Source: Candidatus Desulfobacula maris (lineage in GTDB: Bacteria > Desulfobacterota > Desulfobacteria > Desulfobacterales > Desulfobacteraceae). From it: a stretch of 34,240 nucleotides of DNA. Location of the stretch: the NCBI GenBank assembly GCA_014383445.1, contig JACNHV010000339.1:1-34240 (forward strand). The letters are read 5' to 3'. Of this stretch, positions 1,774 through 23,932 are shown in pieces (position 1 is the stretch's first letter; every line of letters begins with the position of its first letter). The position numbers and the translations under genes are program-made. The notes beneath the pieces are model-generated. The model made no database searches and was not told the origin of the DNA. It saw only the letters and a program-made list of their open reading frames with translations.

Positions 1774-2664
1774 TCAGGAGGAGATCAAGCCTCTTTTTTT
1801 CAGAAGGGGCACAGGATCTACTATATGCCGCGGAAACCATTTTTTCTGATCCTGGGCTCCCAAAGCCATTGAAAGCAATTCGGAAAAATGAAGAACTGGT
1901 ATGGGGTTTTCAAGGCTGCACCGGATTTCAAGATTAAGGTGACACATGGAACAGGCCGTTACCATACATTCTGCCCCGGCTTCCATGGCCTTGGATATAA
2001 TTTCATTTACAACCTTCTGGGCAACCTGAGGTTTTGCAACGGAAAGATATGTTCCGCAGCATCGTGATCCATATCCAAAAGAGATGGGGTCAGCACCCAG
2101 TCGTTTAAGGGTTTGCTCCATAATCCCGTAATAATTTTTTTCAAATCTTAAATCAGGGGGCATGGAAAGCATGCAGCCGTAATAGGGAGCAACCTTGAGG
2201 TTTTTTAATTTATCTTTGGGTTGGTCAATATAATCTTCAAGTCGAATTTTATTAATAATCTCAAAAAAATGGACAATTTCAAGATCTTCGTCAAACGGTT
2301 TTCCCCATAACTCTTCATACTCCTGCTTTAAGGCCTTATCTCTTTTAATCTTTAAATACATGGATTTTATCCTGATCAGGCAGCTTGGGCAGGCAATCAT
2401 TAATGGGATTCCCTTTGGCACCAGGGAAATGTTTCTCATGGGAAGATTTTTTGCCGCATCATGGTCAATACTGTGGGCAGATGATGACCCGCAGCAGTTC
2501 CAGTCTTCAAGTTCTACGAGCTCAATATTTACGCGATCACAAAATTTCAAAAGGGACATGGTGTTTTCATGCCCTGATGCTTTGAGTGAACATCCTGGAA
2601 AAAAAGAAAATTTTAATCTTTCTGACTGTTGGCTGTTTTCATTTTTTTCTGAAGATTTTTTCAA
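1774..2664 (-). CDS. HdrB-like heterodisulfide reductase subunit B family protein (CCG domains)
   Basis: Cytoplasmic iron-sulfur protein with two cysteine-rich CCG domains. The first has C25, C57-C58 and C92/C95 (FFPGCSLK, WNCCGSS, CPSC). The second has the matching set (YYGCMLS, SRCCGTY, CSMC). In HdrB such domains bind two non-cubane [4Fe-4S] clusters that reduce a disulfide. At 296 aa the length fits HdrB. The N-terminus overlaps the end of the HdrC-like gene by 26 bp, so they are co-translated partners. No HdrA or MvhD gene is visible, so the flavin/electron-bifurcating part must lie elsewhere or be absent. The real substrate is unknown; proximity to nifS/iscU suggests thiol or Fe-S chemistry, which is inference. 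Confidence 0.85.
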   Translation of the reverse strand: MKKSSEKNENSQQSERLKFSFFPGCSLKASGHENTMSLLKFCDRVNIELVELEDWNCCGSSSAHSIDHDAAKNLPMRNISLVPKGIPLMIACPSCLIRIKSMYLKIKRDKALKQEYEELWGKPFDEDLEIVHFFEIINKIRLEDYIDQPKDKLKNLKVAPYYGCMLSMPPDLRFEKNYYGIMEQTLKRLGADPISFGYGSRCCGTYLSVAKPQVAQKVVNEIISKAMEAGAECMVTACSMCHLNLEIRCSLENPIPVLHFSELLSMALGAQDQKKWFPRHIVDPVPLLKKRGLISS

Positions 2665-3175
2665 TAGCTTTTTTATCCTGAATTTTTGACGGTGTTAAAT
2701 CCAATTTTCGTTTTTTCAGCATTTTAAGACCAACCCCCATATCGCTGAAAAGATCCATTTTCTTGAACTTATACCGCATCATAATCTCAAGCTTATGGGT
2801 CCTCCCATATTTTTTGACCGTGTTCAATACTTCGGTATGAAAATTCATAATATCAGGTTCCGCAATTTTAACACCCTGTTCAATAGCCTTATGGCGAAGG
2901 CCGTCCATTACAGCAGGTATGTCTATTGCCATAGGACAGCAGCTGCTGCAGGTATTGCACCCCACACACACCCAGATGGTGGAACATTTTAATGCCTCCT
3001 CTTCCATTCCAAACTGGATAAGGCGGATAACAGCATTGGGGGCATAATCCATGCCCTCTATAAATGGGCAGCCATTTGCACAGGTTTTACAATGCAGACA
3101 GGAATTAAAATCAATCCCTGAACTTGCCTTGATTTCATCAACAAGGGTTTGACTCCCTCCATCCTGATTTATCAT
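2639..3175 (-). CDS. HdrC-like subunit with two [4Fe-4S] ferredoxin clusters
   Basis: A small electron-transfer subunit. Two classic 4Fe-4S binding motifs are visible: C26, C29, C32, C36 (CLHCKTCANGCPF) and C70, C73, C76, C80 (CVGCNTCSSCCPM), followed by a helical C-terminal region. This is the HdrC arrangement, which passes electrons to HdrB. At 178 aa it has normal length. Its start overlaps the end of the upstream cysteine desulfurase by 4 bp (ATGA-type junction), and its 3' end overlaps the HdrB-like gene, so it sits in the middle of one tightly packed transcript with iscU and nifS. Confidence 0.85.
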   Translation of the reverse strand: MINQDGGSQTLVDEIKASSGIDFNSCLHCKTCANGCPFIEGMDYAPNAVIRLIQFGMEEEALKCSTIWVCVGCNTCSSCCPMAIDIPAVMDGLRHKAIEQGVKIAEPDIMNFHTEVLNTVKKYGRTHKLEIMMRYKFKKMDLFSDMGVGLKMLKKRKLDLTPSKIQDKKAIEKIFRKK

Positions 3176-4344
3176 ACCATTTTTCCATCCTTCCAGAAGG
3201 GCGACATGTCTCTGAGCTTTTGAATCACAGGAACAAGGGTGGTGATGATTATATCCATCTCTTCCTTTGTATTATAATGGGACAGGGAAAACCGGATAGA
3301 ACCATGGGCTGACTTAAAGGGTACTTTCATTGCCATGAGTACATGGGAGGGATCAAGAGATCCTGATGTGCAGGCAGATCCTGAAGATGCACAGATTCCT
3401 TCACGGTCTAATAAAAGAAGGATGGATTCTCCTTCCACAGCATCAAACCCAATATATAATGTGTTTGGAAGCCTTTGCTCAAGATCTCCATTAACTGATG
3501 AACCGGGAATTTTCTCCAGAAGCCCTGTTTGAAGATAATCCCGAAGTCCCCTGACCTCGGTATTCATAATGGGCAGATTCTCTTTGGCAAGCTCGCAGGC
3601 CTTTCCAAGCCCGATAATGGATACTGTGTTTTCCGTTCCGCCACGACGTCCTTTTTCCTGGTGACCACCAATCAGGAGGGGCGAAAACTTGAATCCCTTT
3701 TTCACATAAAGCACACCAATCCCTTTGGGGGCATGTATTTTATGCCCGGAAAGAGATAACATGTCCACCCCAGCCTTTTTAACATCAATGGGAATTTTAC
3801 CGGCTGCCTGAACTGCATCAGTATGGAAAAGGATTCCCTTTTCCCTGGTTTTTTTTGCAATTTCTTCTATGGGAAACAAAACACCTGTTTCATTGTTCGC
3901 CCACATTAATGAAACAATGGCAGTGTTATCAGACATGCTTTTATACAATAGGTCCAGGTCTAAAAGTCCTTTTTTATCCACTGGAACAAATGTGACCTCA
4001 TACCCCTTTGTCTTTTTAAGATGCTGATAAAGGTTATTAATGGCAGGGTGCTCAACATTGGAAGTAATGATATGTTTTTTTTCAGGAAAGGCTATAAGGG
4101 CTGCATTAATGGCTGCATTATCACTCTCTGTTCCACAGCTTGTGAAAACAATTTCATCTGGATCAGCATTGATGAAATCGGCCACACGCTGTCTTGCCTC
4201 TTTTACCTTTTTGCCCACCTGATCTCCAAAGGTATGCATGGAAGATGGGTTGCCATATAATTCCCCAAAATAAGGAAGCATTTCTTCTATGACTTCATCT
4301 GCAACTTTTGTTGTTGCATTGTTATCCGTATATACTATTTTCAT
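3172..4344 (-). CDS. Cysteine desulfurase (NifS/IscS family)
   Basis: PLP enzyme that removes sulfur from cysteine as a persulfide for Fe-S cluster assembly and other sulfur transfer. The PLP lysine is K202 (LSLSGHKIHAPKG), with a PLP-stacking His in NVEHPA (H99). The nucleophilic cysteine is C325 in SSGSACTSG, the group I (NifS/IscS) loop. The 390-aa length is typical. It begins 9 bp after the scaffold gene and overlaps hdrC by 4 bp. Cysteine made by the neighbouring cysE/cysK genes would be its substrate. NifS versus IscS cannot be decided here; the partner scaffold is NifU-like. Confidence 0.93.
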   Translation of the reverse strand: MKIVYTDNNATTKVADEVIEEMLPYFGELYGNPSSMHTFGDQVGKKVKEARQRVADFINADPDEIVFTSCGTESDNAAINAALIAFPEKKHIITSNVEHPAINNLYQHLKKTKGYEVTFVPVDKKGLLDLDLLYKSMSDNTAIVSLMWANNETGVLFPIEEIAKKTREKGILFHTDAVQAAGKIPIDVKKAGVDMLSLSGHKIHAPKGIGVLYVKKGFKFSPLLIGGHQEKGRRGGTENTVSIIGLGKACELAKENLPIMNTEVRGLRDYLQTGLLEKIPGSSVNGDLEQRLPNTLYIGFDAVEGESILLLLDREGICASSGSACTSGSLDPSHVLMAMKVPFKSAHGSIRFSLSHYNTKEEMDIIITTLVPVIQKLRDMSPFWKDGKMV

Positions 4345-4353
4345 TTTTTAAAA

Positions 4354-4917
4354 TTATCCTTTAGCTTTAACGGATTCAAGAACCTCTTCAATCCTGTCCA
4401 GGCACTGGCCGCATCCGCCGCCGGCTTTTAAATAATTTGTCACATCCTCCGTGGTTTCAAGGCCGTTTGCTTTTACAGCATCAATTATCTCAAGATCGGT
4501 CACATCAAAGCATTCACAAACTATCTGGCCTGGTTTTGACAGAATCTGGACACCTCGAAAATTGGCAATAGCTTTTTTCAAAGCAGACTGCCCCATGACA
4601 GAACAATGCATTTTTTCTTTTGGCAGCCCTCCCAGATAATCTGAGATATCATCATTGGTTATTTTTGCAGCCTCATCAAGGGTCATTCCCTTAATAATCT
4701 CAGTCAAAGCTGACGAAGATGCTACAGCGCTTGCACATCCAAATGTCATAAAGGATGCATCCATAATTCTTTCATTCTTATTGACCTTTAAATATAGTCT
4801 CAATGCATCACCGCAATTTAAGGAACCTGTTTCACCAATGGCATTGGCTCCTTTAAGTTCTCCCACGTTCCTGGGTTTTAAAAAATGGTCTTTTACTTGA
4901 TCTGTATAATCCCACAT
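4354..4917 (-). CDS. Fe-S cluster scaffold, IscU/NifU N-terminal domain plus BFD-like [2Fe-2S] domain
   Basis: Scaffold on which the desulfurase builds Fe-S clusters. Residues 1-125 are the IscU/NifU_N domain with its three cluster cysteines C35 (LNCGDA), C61 (FGCASA) and C105 (MHCSVMG). Residues 130-180 form a BFD/NifU-central domain with C134, C136, C169 and C172 ([14 protein letters not shown]), expected to hold a permanent [2Fe-2S] cluster. The C-terminal thioredoxin-like NifU domain of full-length NifU is absent, so this is the short NifU variant common in anaerobes. It is the first gene of the nifS-hdrC-hdrB transcript, with AAGGAG upstream of the ATG and a promoter about 60-90 bp upstream. 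Confidence 0.92.
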
Positions 4918-18801: not shown

Positions 18802-19377
18802 TTACCAGTTTTCACAAAGCAGTTCAAAAAACCCTGCCGGTTTCACACAGGCCGGGCACTTTTTCGGTGCAGCCTTTCCAGTATGGATATATCCGCAGCT
18901 CAGACATCGCCATACCATTTCTTCCTCTTTTTGAAAGACCCTGTCTGTTGCAATATTCCGGGCCAGCTCAAGATACAGTTTTTCATGATGCTTTTCAGCT
19001 ACAATAATATTGTTAAATGTATCTTGTGCCCTCTCAAATCCTTCTTCTTTGGCTACTATTGCAAATTTGGCATACATATCCTCACTGACATATTTTTCCA
19101 GGGCTGCTGCTGAAAGAAGATTGGCATGGGTATCCTTGATCACACCAGTGGGAAAGATCCATTTTATTTCAAGCTCTCCTGCGTTAAAAAATTTAAAAAA
19201 CCGCAACGCATGTTCAAATTCCTGATCCGCAGTTTCATTAAATATTTTTCCAATCTGGATAAATCCTTCTTCCATAGCTTTATCTGCAAAAAAATCATAC
19301 CGTGTTCTGGCCTGGGTTTCAGCCGCAAAAGAGGTATGAAGATTAATAGCTGTCCTGCTTTCCCTGAACTTAACCAT
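18802..19377 (-). CDS. Rubrerythrin
   Basis: Non-haem diiron peroxidase that reduces hydrogen peroxide in anaerobes. The ferritin-like four-helix part carries the carboxylate and His ligands (FAAETQARTRYDFF, ETADQEFEHALRFFKFF, IVAEKHHEKLYLEL). The C-terminus has a rubredoxin-like FeCys4 domain with two CxxC pairs (CLSCGY and CPAC), which supplies electrons. The frame begins with a GTG at 19383, but AAGAAGG is better spaced for the ATG at 19377, giving 191 aa, the usual size. It lies 14 bp behind the ferredoxin gene, so co-transcription is likely. Rubredoxin from the same cluster is a probable electron donor. Confidence 0.95.
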   Translation of the reverse strand: MVKFRESRTAINLHTSFAAETQARTRYDFFADKAMEEGFIQIGKIFNETADQEFEHALRFFKFFNAGELEIKWIFPTGVIKDTHANLLSAAALEKYVSEDMYAKFAIVAKEEGFERAQDTFNNIIVAEKHHEKLYLELARNIATDRVFQKEEEMVWRCLSCGYIHTGKAAPKKCPACVKPAGFFELLCENW

Positions 19378-19391
19378 AAGCACCTTCTTTT

Positions 19392-19583
19392 TTATTCTTC
19401 AATAATAATGGCCTCTGCACCACATTCAAAAGCTGCCTGACGAACGATGTCTTTCAGATTTTCAGGAATCTCATCCAGTTTAATGGTGGATTTTAACTGA
19501 TCTTCATCATACTCAAAAATTTCAGGACAAAGATCATTGCAGTTCCTGTCTCCCATGCACATTTTGCTGATCGTTACTTTCAT
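19392..19583 (-). CDS. Single-cluster ferredoxin with an Asp ligand (C-x2-D-x2-C-x3-C)
   Basis: A 63-aa ferredoxin. Its cluster motif is C9-MG-D12-RN-C15-NDL-C19-P, with the fourth cysteine C54 near the C-terminus (FECGAEAI). The second cysteine of the usual CxxCxxC is aspartate, as in Pyrococcus furiosus ferredoxin (CIGDAIC), where the cluster is Asp-ligated and can convert between [4Fe-4S] and [3Fe-4S]. A GTG lies 9 bp further upstream, but AAGGAG is well spaced only for the ATG at 19583. It sits between the VTT-flavoprotein gene and rubrerythrin, a plausible electron carrier for either. Confidence 0.88.
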   Translation of the reverse strand: MKVTISKMCMGDRNCNDLCPEIFEYDEDQLKSTIKLDEIPENLKDIVRQAAFECGAEAIIIEE

Positions 19584-19637
19584 TTTATACACTCCTTTTT
19601 TAAAATAATTTATTTACCATCTTACAACTTGCATAGC

Positions 19638-21809
19638 CTATTTCCGCATCCAGGCATGATATTTTCTGATCCATGCCAGTAATTTTTGGGGCGCATGTTT
19701 TTTTTTCCACAACCCGGCCGCATACTTATTAGCCTCGGCCATTGTAGGGTAAATATGAATTGTCCCTAAAATCTTATTCAATCCTATTCCATGCTTCATT
19801 GCAAGAACAAATTCTGCAATCACATCAGCAGCATGATTTCCCACAATGGTGACACCCAATATCTTATCCTTTCCCGGCACGGTCAAAACCTTTACAAATC
19901 CATGATTTTCAGAGTCTGCAATGGCCCGGTCAAGGTCATCAATCCCATATTTGACCATTTCATAATCAATCCCGGCAAATTTGGCATCTGTCTCATTTAT
20001 TCCAACCCTTGCCACTTCAGGATCAGTGTAAGTGGCCCATGGGATGGTGCTATAATCTACTCTGAATTTTTTAAACCTGCCAAACAGGGCGTTTACAGAA
20101 GAATACCAGGATTCGTGGGCGGCAGTATGGGTAAATAGATATCGGCCATGAACATCACCACTGCAATAGATATTGGGAAAATTGGTCTGTAAAAATTCAT
20201 TGGTTTCAATATGCTTAGTTCTGGTAAGTTCAATGCCAAGCTCCTCAAGGCCAAACCCTTTAACATTGGGGGTTCTTCCAAGGGCAATCAGGATCCTATC
20301 AAATGGGATCATAATTTGTTTTCCGTCATGATCACAAACCAATTGTTTTTGATCCCCTTGTTTTTCGTCTGGTTTTTCATCCTTGAAAACTTCAATGGCT
20401 TTGGCCGAATGATTCAAAAGGACCTCAATACCTTCTGCCCGGAATCTGTCTAAAACGATTTGGGCAGCATCAGGATCTTCTTTTTTCATTATCATCGAAC
20501 CCCTCTGGACAAGGGTTACCTTTGATCCCAGTCTTGAAAATCCCTGGGCAAGCTCACACCCTATCGGCCCTGCACCTAATACCAACAGGTTTTTTGGCAA
20601 AGTTCTAATATCCCAGATATTGTCCGAGGTAAGATAGCGTATCTGATCCAGTCCTGGCAGATCAGGAACCATTGGTTTTGCACCCGTGGCAACAATGATA
20701 TTTTTTGTGGTTAAAATTTTATCATTCACCTTTACTTCAAAAGGAGATACAATCTTTGCTCTGCCCTGGATACAATCCACACCCAACGTTGTATACCGTT
20801 CAATTGAATCATGGGGCGCAACTTTTTTAATAATGGATTGAATCCGTTCCATTATAGCGGCAAAATTAAAATCAATAGAAACCCTGTCAAACCCGAATTC
20901 TTTTGCTCTTCTGGTATAGGATAAAAGTCTGGCACTGGCAATCAAAGCCTTGCTGGGTACGCAACCAGTATTAAGGCAGTCTCCCCCCATTTTATGTTCT
21001 TCAATCAAAGCAACCTTTGCCTTGACAGCCGAGGCAATATAGGAAGCCACAAGCCCAGCCGCACCTGCGCCAATCACTACAAGGTTATAATCATAAACTT
21101 TCGGCTTTGAAAATTTAGAAAATACTTTTTGCTGTTTTACCATTGTTGTGAGCCGTTTTGCGATAATCGGGAAAATACCTAATAAAGCAAAGGAGAGAAT
21201 AATGTTCAACGATAAAATCTGGCTGATAGTTTCTATTTTTGCAAGCTGGGTTCCGGCATTGATAAATACAATGGTGACAGGAAGCATTCCCAGTTGCGAG
21301 ACAATATAAAAAACAGAGGTGCGAATGGTGGTAATACCCATTACAAGGTTGATCATAAAAAATGGAAACACAGGCACAAGCCTTAAGGTAAACAGATAAA
21401 ATCCACCCTCTTTTTCTATTCCCTTATTAATAGCAGCAAGTTTGGATGAAAATTTATGCTGGACCCAGTCTTTAAACATGTACCTGGAAACTAAAAAGGC
21501 TGAAGTTGCGCCCAGGGTGCTGGCAAAGGAGACAAGGATTGTACCGTATAAAACTCCGAACAAGGCACCACCCGCAAGTGTCATAATAGCAGCCCCGGGA
21601 AGGGATAATGCTGTCACAAGAATATAGACGGCCATATAAATTGCCATGGTCTGCGATTTATGATTAACATAATACTCATTAAAGGCATCAAGTTCATTTT
21701 TCATCCTTGTAAAAGAAAAATAATGATCCAGGTCAAACAAAAAAAATGTTAAAATCAACCCTGCTAAGGAAAGCAGAAGTACAATTTTAAATCCCAATTT
21801 TTTATTCAT
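19638..21809 (-). CDS. Fusion of VTT (TVP38/DedA-like) membrane domain and FAD pyridine nucleotide-disulfide oxidoreductase (MerA/Lpd-like)
   Basis: A 723-aa two-part protein. Residues 1-220 are a membrane domain with about five to six hydrophobic segments and the VTT hallmark RLVPVFPFFMINLVMG (143-158). From 240 on it is a soluble flavoprotein disulfide reductase. The FAD site is VVIGAGAAG (GxGxxG 247-252), and the redox-active pair is C278/C283 in GGDCLNTGCVPSK. The NAD(P)H motif is VLGAGPIGCELAQGF, followed by the C-terminal dimerisation domain. The HPT catalytic His of dihydrolipoamide dehydrogenase is replaced: HIYPTMAE has Y687, as in mercuric reductase-like enzymes. There is no N-terminal HMA domain and no vicinal C-terminal CC pair, so mercury reduction is doubtful. 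It is probably a membrane-tethered thiol/disulfide or quinone-linked reductase, 20 bp after the NDH-like gene. Confidence 0.88.
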   Translation of the reverse strand: MNKKLGFKIVLLLSLAGLILTFFLFDLDHYFSFTRMKNELDAFNEYYVNHKSQTMAIYMAVYILVTALSLPGAAIMTLAGGALFGVLYGTILVSFASTLGATSAFLVSRYMFKDWVQHKFSSKLAAINKGIEKEGGFYLFTLRLVPVFPFFMINLVMGITTIRTSVFYIVSQLGMLPVTIVFINAGTQLAKIETISQILSLNIILSFALLGIFPIIAKRLTTMVKQQKVFSKFSKPKVYDYNLVVIGAGAAGLVASYIASAVKAKVALIEEHKMGGDCLNTGCVPSKALIASARLLSYTRRAKEFGFDRVSIDFNFAAIMERIQSIIKKVAPHDSIERYTTLGVDCIQGRAKIVSPFEVKVNDKILTTKNIIVATGAKPMVPDLPGLDQIRYLTSDNIWDIRTLPKNLLVLGAGPIGCELAQGFSRLGSKVTLVQRGSMIMKKEDPDAAQIVLDRFRAEGIEVLLNHSAKAIEVFKDEKPDEKQGDQKQLVCDHDGKQIMIPFDRILIALGRTPNVKGFGLEELGIELTRTKHIETNEFLQTNFPNIYCSGDVHGRYLFTHTAAHESWYSSVNALFGRFKKFRVDYSTIPWATYTDPEVARVGINETDAKFAGIDYEMVKYGIDDLDRAIADSENHGFVKVLTVPGKDKILGVTIVGNHAADVIAEFVLAMKHGIGLNKILGTIHIYPTMAEANKYAAGLWKKKHAPQKLLAWIRKYHAWMRK

Positions 21810-21829: not shown

Positions 21830-22951
21830 CTATAATACTTTTTCAATGGCTTGAAATTTCTTCATAAATTTGCGGTCAATATAATCTTTAATCATAAATG
21901 CAATTCTCCCGCCAAACACCAGCCATTTTTTCTTGAATATGCCAACTTTGCCGCCAACATTGAAAATCAAAAGATAGTCAGGCCCAGGATTAAATACTTC
22001 AAGCTCTCCTTGTTCAAGGCTTGCCATCAAGTTATGAAGCAGGACAGGATTTTGCCTGACTGCATATACACCAACCTTATCCAGAGGCTGATCCTTAAAA
22101 TAGATACAATCACCGCCGCCGAATATTTCAGGATATTTTTCACTTTGCAGGTATTTATTAACTAAAAGCCCTTTATCCGGCCCAACAGGCAGACCAGATT
22201 CCTCAAAGATGGTGGAAGGCTTTACACCCAGAGCCATGAAAATAAAATCTGTGGAAAATTTATCCCCCGTTTCAAGGCTGATTTCATCGGACTTGATCTG
22301 TTTTACATAACCTGTCTCAAAAATTTGAATACCTCTTTTGCCAAGGGTTGATATCACCCTTGATCTGATACTTTCGGGAAATCTTGCCATAAATTTTTTA
22401 CCGGCAAAAATATTAATATCCGGCATATGCTGGTTTACTTTTTTTGCCAGCTGCCAGACATTTCCAGCCACTTCCGCAGATGAAGGCCCGCCTCCTACAA
22501 TACTGACGATAATTTTTTTATGTAAAAACAATTTTTTTAATTTATCTGCAGCCTCCATTAGTTTTTCAATGGGTTTGACCGTGTAAATATTATCAGAGTC
22601 TTCAAGGCCTGCCTGCATGGGGACATAACTGCCCGCATTAAAGGAAACAACATCATAGGAAAATGTATGCCCTGTCCTGGTATAAATCTCTTTTTTATCC
22701 GGATCAATCCGAACGACTTTATCCTTTACAAAGATACCACCCTGTTTTTGAACCACATCCCTTGTGGCGAATCTGATATCGTCAGAACTGTAAGTCCCGC
22801 CCAGCATCCCGGGACCCATTCCGGAATAAAAGTGAAAAAAAGAAGGGCCGATCACTGTAACTTTAAACCCTTTTTCAACAAAAGAACCGATATTTTCAAG
22901 GGTCATCATGTGGGCATGGCCGCCCCCAATGAGTACAAGATGTTTTCTCAT
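21830..22951 (-). CDS. FAD-dependent pyridine nucleotide-disulfide oxidoreductase (NDH-2 / SelD N-terminal-like)
   Basis: A 373-aa flavoprotein. It opens with the dinucleotide-binding strand LVLIGGGHAHMMTL (GGG 9-11), and the FYSGMGPGMLGGTYS segment matches the oxidoreductase domain found fused to the N-terminus of some selenophosphate synthetases (SelD) and stand-alone NDH-2/SQR relatives. The second nucleotide site is VSIVGGGPSSAEVAGN, and the C-terminal FAD contact is IFGGGDCIYF. No redox CxxC is seen, so it is not a disulfide reductase in the strict sense. Its C-terminus is lysine-rich with a possible membrane-binding amphipathic stretch. AAAAGGAGAGGG precedes the ATG. Upstream lies an 18-bp tandem repeat and a selenoprotein gene. 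Confidence 0.85.
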   Translation of the reverse strand: MRKHLVLIGGGHAHMMTLENIGSFVEKGFKVTVIGPSFFHFYSGMGPGMLGGTYSSDDIRFATRDVVQKQGGIFVKDKVVRIDPDKKEIYTRTGHTFSYDVVSFNAGSYVPMQAGLEDSDNIYTVKPIEKLMEAADKLKKLFLHKKIIVSIVGGGPSSAEVAGNVWQLAKKVNQHMPDINIFAGKKFMARFPESIRSRVISTLGKRGIQIFETGYVKQIKSDEISLETGDKFSTDFIFMALGVKPSTIFEESGLPVGPDKGLLVNKYLQSEKYPEIFGGGDCIYFKDQPLDKVGVYAVRQNPVLLHNLMASLEQGELEVFNPGPDYLLIFNVGGKVGIFKKKWLVFGGRIAFMIKDYIDRKFMKKFQAIEKVL

Positions 22952-22965
22952 TTTACCCTCTCCTT

Positions 22966-23037
22966 TTACTTGTGACCTTTAGGTTACTTGTGACCTTTAA
23001 CCTGAAGGTCACGCGCAGGTTACTTGTGACCTTTTGG
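22966..23037. repeat. Tandem array of four 18-bp units (TTACTTGTGACCTTT), one inverted
   Basis: TTACTTGTGACCTTT occurs at 22966-22980, 22984-22998 and 23020-23034, that is at offsets 0, 18 and 54. The unit at offset 36 (23002-23019) carries the core inverted (AAGGTCAC). The result is also a dyad, GTGACCTT-N7-AAGGTCAC at 22990-23012, and an alternative one, AACCTG/CAGGTT at 22999-23021. It fills the gap between the selenoprotein stop and the ribosome site of the NDH-like gene, so it would be in the 5' leader or an internal promoter. Confidence 0.8.
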
Positions 23038-23038
23038 G

Positions 23039-23869
23039 TTAAAGACTGTCCATAAGTTTGCCCAGACTTGCCAGATGCACTTTTTCCTCATTGGCAATCT
23101 TATTGATAATATCCTTTGATTTCGCATTCTCAATTTTTGCAGACACTCTTTGATAAAGATCCAGGGCCTGTGCTTCTATTGACATGGCAAGAGAAATTAC
23201 ATCAATTTCAGAATTCAAGTCGGGATTAAAAAGATCAAGATATTCTCTTGTGGAAAGGCCACCTTCCAATGCCTTGTTTTCAACCATTTTTTCAAATTCA
23301 TCCCTGCTTGTTTCCCCATTGCTGATTTCATTGTATGCTTTATAAATAGACATCTGATGTTTTACTTCAATTTCAGATAATTTGGCAAAAAGATCTCTTA
23401 CTCGTTCATTTTTTGCTTCTATTTCCATGGAAATATAGAAATCGCACAACCCCTGTTCAAGGGAATAGGCTACCTTTAATATATCCTGGGGCTCTTCTTT
23501 GCCGGTGAAAAGATCCATTCCAAGATCCTGGGGGCCGATGGCAGTTTTGGCATGCCATGCCTTTATCCCGCCGGCGACATTAAACACTCGTTTAAACCCT
23601 TTTCCTGCAAGCATTTGCGCAGCAACACGGCTGCGCCCGCCAACAGCTCAGTAGACCAAAGTGGGTTTTTCAGGATCAAGTTCTTCAAGTCTGTCAGAAA
23701 GCTGGGGTAGAGGAATAAGCGTGGCTCCGGGAATATGGCTCTCCTGATATTCCGAGGGCTGCCTGACATCCAGGATGGTTATTTCTTCACCTGGATGCTG
23801 AGAAATATAGCTTTCAGTTTCATTAAAATCTATTGATTTAGCAGGCGTTAAAAACTGCATCCATTTCAT
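23039..23869 (-). CDS. Selenocysteine-containing rhodanese-ferritin-like (rubrerythrin) fusion protein
   Basis: One 276-aa protein is encoded if the in-frame TGA at 23650-23648 (codon 74) is read as selenocysteine. Residues 1-105 are a rhodanese domain (ITILDVRQPSEYQESHIPGA, then PTLVY-U-AVGGRSRVAAQ, then FNVAGGIKAW). The TGA stands exactly where the catalytic persulfide cysteine belongs (VYCxxGGRS). Residues 118-270 are a ferritin-like diiron bundle with ligands E138, E168/H171 (EVKH), E232 and E262/H265 (EKVH). Both halves are in one frame with no other stop, and both are well conserved, arguing against decay. A SECIS-like stem-loop follows the TGA. GGAGGAGT precedes the ATG. Likely role: sulfane-sulfur/persulfide or peroxide handling beside rubredoxin and rubrerythrin. 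Automatic annotation would split it in two (23648-23869 and 23039-23614). Confidence 0.87.
23617..23650 (-). promoter_or_regulatory. Recoded UGA and bacterial SECIS-like hairpin
   Basis: On the minus strand the TGA (23650-23648) is followed, 11 nt later, by a perfect 7-bp stem GCGCAGC / GCUGCGC (23636-23630 and 23623-23617) closing a 6-nt loop CGUGUU. The loop begins 18 nt after the UGA and has G at its second position. Both agree with the published bacterial SECIS model (loop about 16-37 nt after UGA, G among the first two loop bases) as I recall it. Confidence 0.8.
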
Positions 23870-23932
23870 ACATACTCCTCCTGGTTTGGTTTTATGCGTT
23901 GGCTAAAAGAGTTTATTCTCTAACGATCAAGC

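Follow-up and report, generated by a model that had tools for sequence, protein, structure and literature searches.

A candidate selenocysteine-containing rhodanese–rubrerythrin fusion protein in Candidatus Desulfobacula maris and its relatives

In a 34,240-nt stretch of the genome of Candidatus Desulfobacula maris, most probably a sulfate reducer of the Desulfobacteraceae (contig JACNHV010000339.1 of assembly GCA_014383445.1; hereafter the window), we found a 276-codon gene for a rhodanese domain joined to a rubrerythrin-type diiron domain, in which UGA at codon 74 is almost certainly decoded as selenocysteine (Sec) through SelB, Sec-tRNA and a bSECIS hairpin. We favour Sec at this codon because several lines of comparative evidence agree. 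The features of the locus are collected in Table 1.

Table 1. Features of the fusion gene and its neighbourhood in the window
Feature	Position	Strand	Basis or remark
Predicted Sec-rhodanese–rubrerythrin fusion gene, 276 codons + TAA	23039..23869	-	ORF listing, translation, Pfam; ATG at 23869, TAA at 23041-23039
Codon 74, TGA, predicted Sec; residue 1 of the six-residue rhodanese loop U-A-V-G-G-R	23648..23650	-	Homologue alignment
Putative bSECIS hairpin, GCGCAGC-CGUGUU-GCUGCGC	23617..23636	-	Stem from 11 nt and apical loop from 18 nt downstream of UGA
Shine-Dalgarno-like AGGAGGAG of the fusion gene, 5' of ATG	23875..23882	-	
Rhodanese domain, residues 28-108	23546..23788	-	Pfam, AlphaFold2 model, Foldseek
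Rubrerythrin/ferritin-like diiron domain, residues 129-273	23051..23485	-	Pfam, ligand conservation, model
Rubredoxin, 59 aa	23933..24112	-	Directly upstream, co-directional; mainly in close relatives
FAD oxidoreductase, NDH-2 / TIGR03169-like	21830..22951	-	Directly downstream; conserved more than any other neighbour
VTT-domain + FAD disulfide-reductase-type protein	19638..21809	-	Downstream; mainly in close relatives
4Fe-4S ferredoxin	19392..19592	-	Downstream; conserved in close relatives
Classical rubrerythrin with rubredoxin domain	18802..19383	-	Downstream; conserved in close relatives

Reading frame and codon 74

The first-pass annotation of this DNA had proposed a single frame interrupted only by TGA at the position of the rhodanese nucleophile, without naming the strand. 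It proved to be a minus-strand frame, with the TGA at codon 74 indeed its sole interruption. The ribosome site noted there is likewise present before the ATG, and the expectation that gene callers would report two broken genes came true with table 11, which splits the fusion into ORFs of 73 aa (23648-23869) and 191 aa (23039-23614). Further TGA-joined frames are also listed in the window. Between the fusion and FAD oxidoreductase genes (window 22963-23034), an 18-nt direct repeat (AGGTTACTTGTGACCTTT) occurs three times.

Codon 74 was TGA in 93, TGC in 50 and TGT in 21 of 164 homologues, with no other codon, and in this way the Cys/Sec exchange that had been named as a check was seen at this position. 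The 164 consist of 137 aligned homologues and 30 loci from a phylum-wide sample, less three repeats of earlier loci. The same picture was obtained in the two sets separately (TGA 81, TGC 39, TGT 17 and no other among the 137; TGA 15, TGC 11, TGT 4 among the 30 loci of the phylum-wide sample), though part of the 137 represent the same genome via two collections, leaving 131 distinct rows in the tree. Moreover, a scan of genome contigs for relatives gave 35 loci, 34 of which encode the fusion whole or partially, all 34 with TGA at codon 74. One locus with an apparent frameshift and more stops (L050) was excluded from the codon tally, and a distant match of the phylum sample that contains TAG (G425) is also outside it. 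In a distant paralogue (L148), the matched stretch opens with a stop codon, at the edge of the match.

These data bear on the simplest alternative, that the TGA is a genuine stop in a pseudogene, by sequencing error or between two separate proteins. Standard gene calling does yield two ORFs, but 93 homologues, drawn from many assemblies, share this TGA and have the protein conserved on both sides of it, no other in-frame stop occurs in 124 same-architecture copies, and the Cys forms are uninterrupted. A read error, which the first-pass annotation had listed as a way to be wrong, is ruled against because dozens of genomes show the same TGA independently. We therefore rejected the pseudogene, sequencing-error and two-gene readings on the comparative codon-74 data, and give them a negligible probability.

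When 291 genomes of the order were searched with a profile, 163 had matches at E <=1e-20, some with one internal TGA and some without, the weaker ones representing a distant Cys-only clade; in the phylum-wide sample, 84 of 395 genomes had matches at E <=1e-60. This distant clade of rhodanese–ferritin-like fusions (L144-L154, L156, L157) occurs alongside the Sec/Cys clade, in some cases within one genome. According to the tree, about 15 changes between Sec and Cys are needed, and at least six of them fall on strongly supported (starred) branches.

Putative bSECIS hairpin and Sec decoding machinery

The perfect 7-bp stem with a 6-nt loop, described earlier at 11 nt after the TGA, was recovered exactly, and its folding energy is -12.2 kcal/mol. 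The published bSECIS model gives a stem of 4-16 bp, a loop of 3-9 nt with G in the first two loop positions, a spacing of 16-37 nt and an MFE <=-7.5 (PMC13188914), and the hairpin of the fusion gene lies within every limit quoted there. When the region was recoded synonymously 20,000 times with the local codon usage, the 7 bp were kept in 0.01% and equal fold stability in 0.005% of the recodings.

Among homologues, 66 of 73 distinct TGA sequences keep a 5-bp core of the hairpin intact, versus 7 of 42 Cys sequences (Fisher 1e-15), and codon 83 (Ala83) is GCT in 67 of 73 versus 10 of 42 (Fisher 7e-14), both tests ignoring relatedness; with relatedness controlled, the association of hairpin and Sec rests on six independent pairs only and is not significant. 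The 48 nt that follow codon 74 differed little in mean folding energy between Sec genes (-18.5) and Cys genes (-17.1), and for this reason position-specific pairs were analysed. Core cells were paired in 98.1% of cases in TGA sequences, above 500 of 500 shuffles, versus 77.6% in Cys sequences, no better than shuffled. In addition, four TGA sequences carry a compensatory change of a C-G pair to A-U at the cost of replacing Ala by Ser. The exact core hairpin is missing from seven TGA genes. In three more distant TGA copies (L176, L182, L183), an apparent shifted alternative hairpin, GAGCC...GGCTC, replaces the core.

With regard to the decoding machinery, selA, selB and selC, which the first-pass annotation had advised to look for, are all present in the genome: selC (75 bits, anticodon TCA) as one canonical tRNA-Sec, selB with a match of 343 bits and selA with 597 bits. 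The selD gene is situated on a different contig from the fusion gene and has one in-frame TGA, making its product (L189) an independent candidate for a Sec protein. Co-occurrence of selC did not discriminate the Sec from the Cys form (tRNA-Sec in 45 of 54 TGA-form genomes versus selC in 35 of 41 Cys-form genomes), and is uninformative because the Cys-form genomes of the order mostly have selC too. SelB was found in six of the nine TGA genomes without tRNA-Sec, and the other three are MAGs of 69-89% completeness.

A shorter tRNA-Sec-like gene of about 92 nt, with anticodon TCA and 50-58 bits to RF01852, is present in several Desulfobacterales genomes (loci L191/L192 in one genome, L193/L194 in another, L195-L199 and L201-L203), in some of them alongside a canonical 98-nt selC. 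This gene may be an allo-tRNA or an additional decoder of UGA. Its presence in some relatives may speak for translation of the UGA as another amino acid, such as Cys by an allo-tRNA. On the other hand, the genome of the window has one canonical tRNA-Sec together with SelA, SelB and SelD, and the hairpin accompanies the TGA form, so that we regard another amino acid at codon 74 as very improbable.

Domains, gene neighbourhood and a possible function

Pfam recognised both halves of the protein, Rhodanese (PF00581; 3.4e-21, 76 bits versus a gathering cut-off of 22.2) and Rubrerythrin (PF02915; 8.5e-12, 46 bits versus a cut-off of 22.8). AlphaFold2, run on 95 family members, predicted two domains with confidence (mean pLDDT 88.9, pTM 0.84), an alpha/beta rhodanese followed by four long helices. 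The chain stops after the fourth helix, and a C-terminal rubredoxin domain is absent. The claim that the ferritin-like diiron ligands are intact held in the alignment of 95 sequences, where E138, E168xxH171, E232 and E262xxH265, the full E/ExxH/E/ExxH set, are invariant or at least 90% conserved. The classical rubrerythrin model NF045767 gave no match to the fusion protein. The 50 Foldseek matches listed were rhodanese-type, including 3tp9, 3iwh and 1gmx, and the sequence-profile search found no solved chain whose best stretch spans both domains.

Active sulfur-transferring rhodaneses have a six-residue loop with the nucleophile first and Arg, Thr or Ser last (PMC8533005). The loop of the fusion, U74-A-V-G-G-R79, fits this rule with predicted Sec first and terminal Arg. 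Most known selenoproteins are redox enzymes (2022 review) and the neighbouring genes encode redox proteins, both of which favour another role for this residue, namely a peroxidatic or reductase Sec in a seleno-peroxidase head on a diiron peroxidase. However, the loop retains the sulfurtransferase signature UxxGxR with G77, R79 and S80 invariant in the family alignment, and no second conserved Cys (UxxC or CxxU) was found near Sec in the family. A purely redox Sec is thus unlikely in our estimation.

We rather propose that the product is a rhodanese with a selenol nucleophile joined to a rubrerythrin-type diiron helical bundle. The selenol would take sulfane sulfur from polysulfide, persulfide or thiosulfate to give an Se-S intermediate, and the diiron domain would reduce peroxide (or O2) with electrons reaching it from NAD(P)H by way of the neighbouring NDH-2/NROR-like FAD oxidoreductase and, at the present locus, also rubredoxin. 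With both domains in one chain, a sulfidic but oxygen-exposed cell could remove peroxide and at the same time keep sulfane sulfur in check or re-reduce it, and selenium at the sulfur-carrying site may be harder to inactivate by oxidation.

The FAD oxidoreductase gene adjoins the fusion at no fewer than 62 of 81 Sec loci and 23 of 43 Cys loci, in most cases at a distance of about 100 nt or less and on the same strand; these counts are lower bounds, as flank length varies among loci. A deep Sec clade has no copy of the FAD enzyme close to the fusion, and rubredoxin, found at 26 of 81 Sec loci, is not a general neighbour. The FAD protein resembles NDH-2-type NADH dehydrogenases, with YjlD as its best PDB match. 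Sulfide:quinone reductases are also among its PDB matches, but this identity is disfavoured, since a single conserved cysteine, C282 in a GDC motif, is present in 79 of 79 copies and the catalytic pair is missing. Elsewhere in the window (1774-4917, minus strand), genes for a CCG-domain protein, a 4Fe-4S protein, a class-V aminotransferase (cysteine desulfurase-like) and a NifU/BFD protein form a cluster suggesting sulfur mobilisation or Fe-S assembly.

Two other functions were considered. The diiron domain might oxidise the sulfane sulfur borne by the rhodanese, as a diiron counterpart of the persulfide dioxygenase–rhodanese fusions BpPRF and CstB. Such fusions (5ve3, 5ve4, 5ve5) and the beta-lactamase-fold–rhodanese protein 3tp9 are among the closest solved rhodanese domains, and the sulfide:quinone reductase matches of the FAD enzyme point in the same direction. 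Nevertheless, sulfur oxidation seems rather improbable to us, as most of the hosts are anaerobes, the domain is of the rubrerythrin type and not a metallo-beta-lactamase fold, and the FAD neighbour lacks the cysteine pair. Alternatively, the fusion may serve selenium metabolism, with rhodanese-bound selenium (perselenide) being passed to selenophosphate synthetase and the FAD enzyme being kin to the NDH-like domain fused to SelD. The FAD neighbour does match TIGR03169 'Nterm_to_SelD' (3e-73, 247 bits, under the curated cut-off of 310), and Ndh-SelD fusions are common (PMC4561486, PMC2398784). However, selD is on another contig, Cys forms with the same FAD neighbour are widespread, and the diiron domain would be left unexplained; we find a role in selenium supply quite doubtful.

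A selenol persulfide carrier joined to a diiron peroxidase, as first suggested for this gene, may accordingly be described as fitting both the anatomy of the protein and its gene neighbourhood. For the mechanism as a whole, a Sec-rhodanese sulfur carrier coupled to NAD(P)H-fed diiron removal of peroxide or O2, we see an even balance of chances, the electron route and the coupling being parts deduced from domains and neighbours. Somewhat short of that stands the proposal that seleno-rhodanese and diiron centre share one chain so that Sec-bound sulfane sulfur is used or protected by peroxide/O2 chemistry with a dedicated NAD(P)H–FAD enzyme.

Relation to known systems and significance

Sec-containing rhodanese-like proteins of five forms are described in a 2026 review, forms 2 and 4 having the motif UxxG (PMC13188914). 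The fusion shares with these two a predicted Sec in a rhodanese-like domain and the motif (U-A-V-G), a comparison made by motif alone, and a rubrerythrin or ferritin domain is mentioned there for none of forms 1-5. The chain passed no NCBIfam model, scoring 37.5 bits with NF041203 (CxU Sec-rhodanese; cut-off 115) and 22.1 bits with NF045694/TsoB (cut-off 805). Domain fusions are a recognised kind of selenoprotein in the GOS survey (PMC2398784), and the 2022 review and the Sargasso and GOS surveys name rhodaneses and not such a rhodanese–rubrerythrin fusion. Going by these reviews, surveys and NCBIfam models, the Sec fusion is apparently undescribed, and it is possible that it has been listed before as a plain 'rhodanese'.

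The four-helix diiron ligand set is common to rubrerythrin and ferriperoxin, the latter being a rubrerythrin-like peroxidase (PMC3317640) that likewise has no C-terminal rubredoxin domain. Unlike them, the fusion has an N-terminal rhodanese with predicted Sec before the diiron domain, and its rubredoxin is a separate neighbouring gene. BpPRF (5ve3) and CstB also combine a rhodanese and an iron enzyme domain in one chain, but the fold of the iron domain and the domain order are different, and predicted Sec takes the place of Cys in the fusion. In NADH-dependent persulfide reductases / CoADR–rhodanese proteins (3nta, 3icr, 8a56), a rhodanese similarly operates together with an FAD NAD(P)H oxidoreductase, whereas here the FAD enzyme comes from a separate gene and has a single conserved Cys, and the system includes a diiron domain as well. 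The SelD-fused Ndh-like FAD proteins (TIGR03169) are the nearest named family of the downstream gene, which is itself unfused to SelD.

The fusion adds a domain architecture to the bacterial selenoproteome, one found in just over half of the sampled genomes of the order, including the distant Cys-only clade, and in about a fifth across the phylum sample. Ordinary annotation splits every predicted Sec copy into two ORFs. The repeated exchange of Sec and Cys within one orthologous family offers a natural series on the benefit of selenium at a sulfur-transfer site, and the link between a diiron centre and sulfane-sulfur chemistry can be tested directly. If the proposed mechanism is true, the fusion would represent a new selenoprotein family and a combined sulfur and oxygen-stress enzyme of anaerobes.
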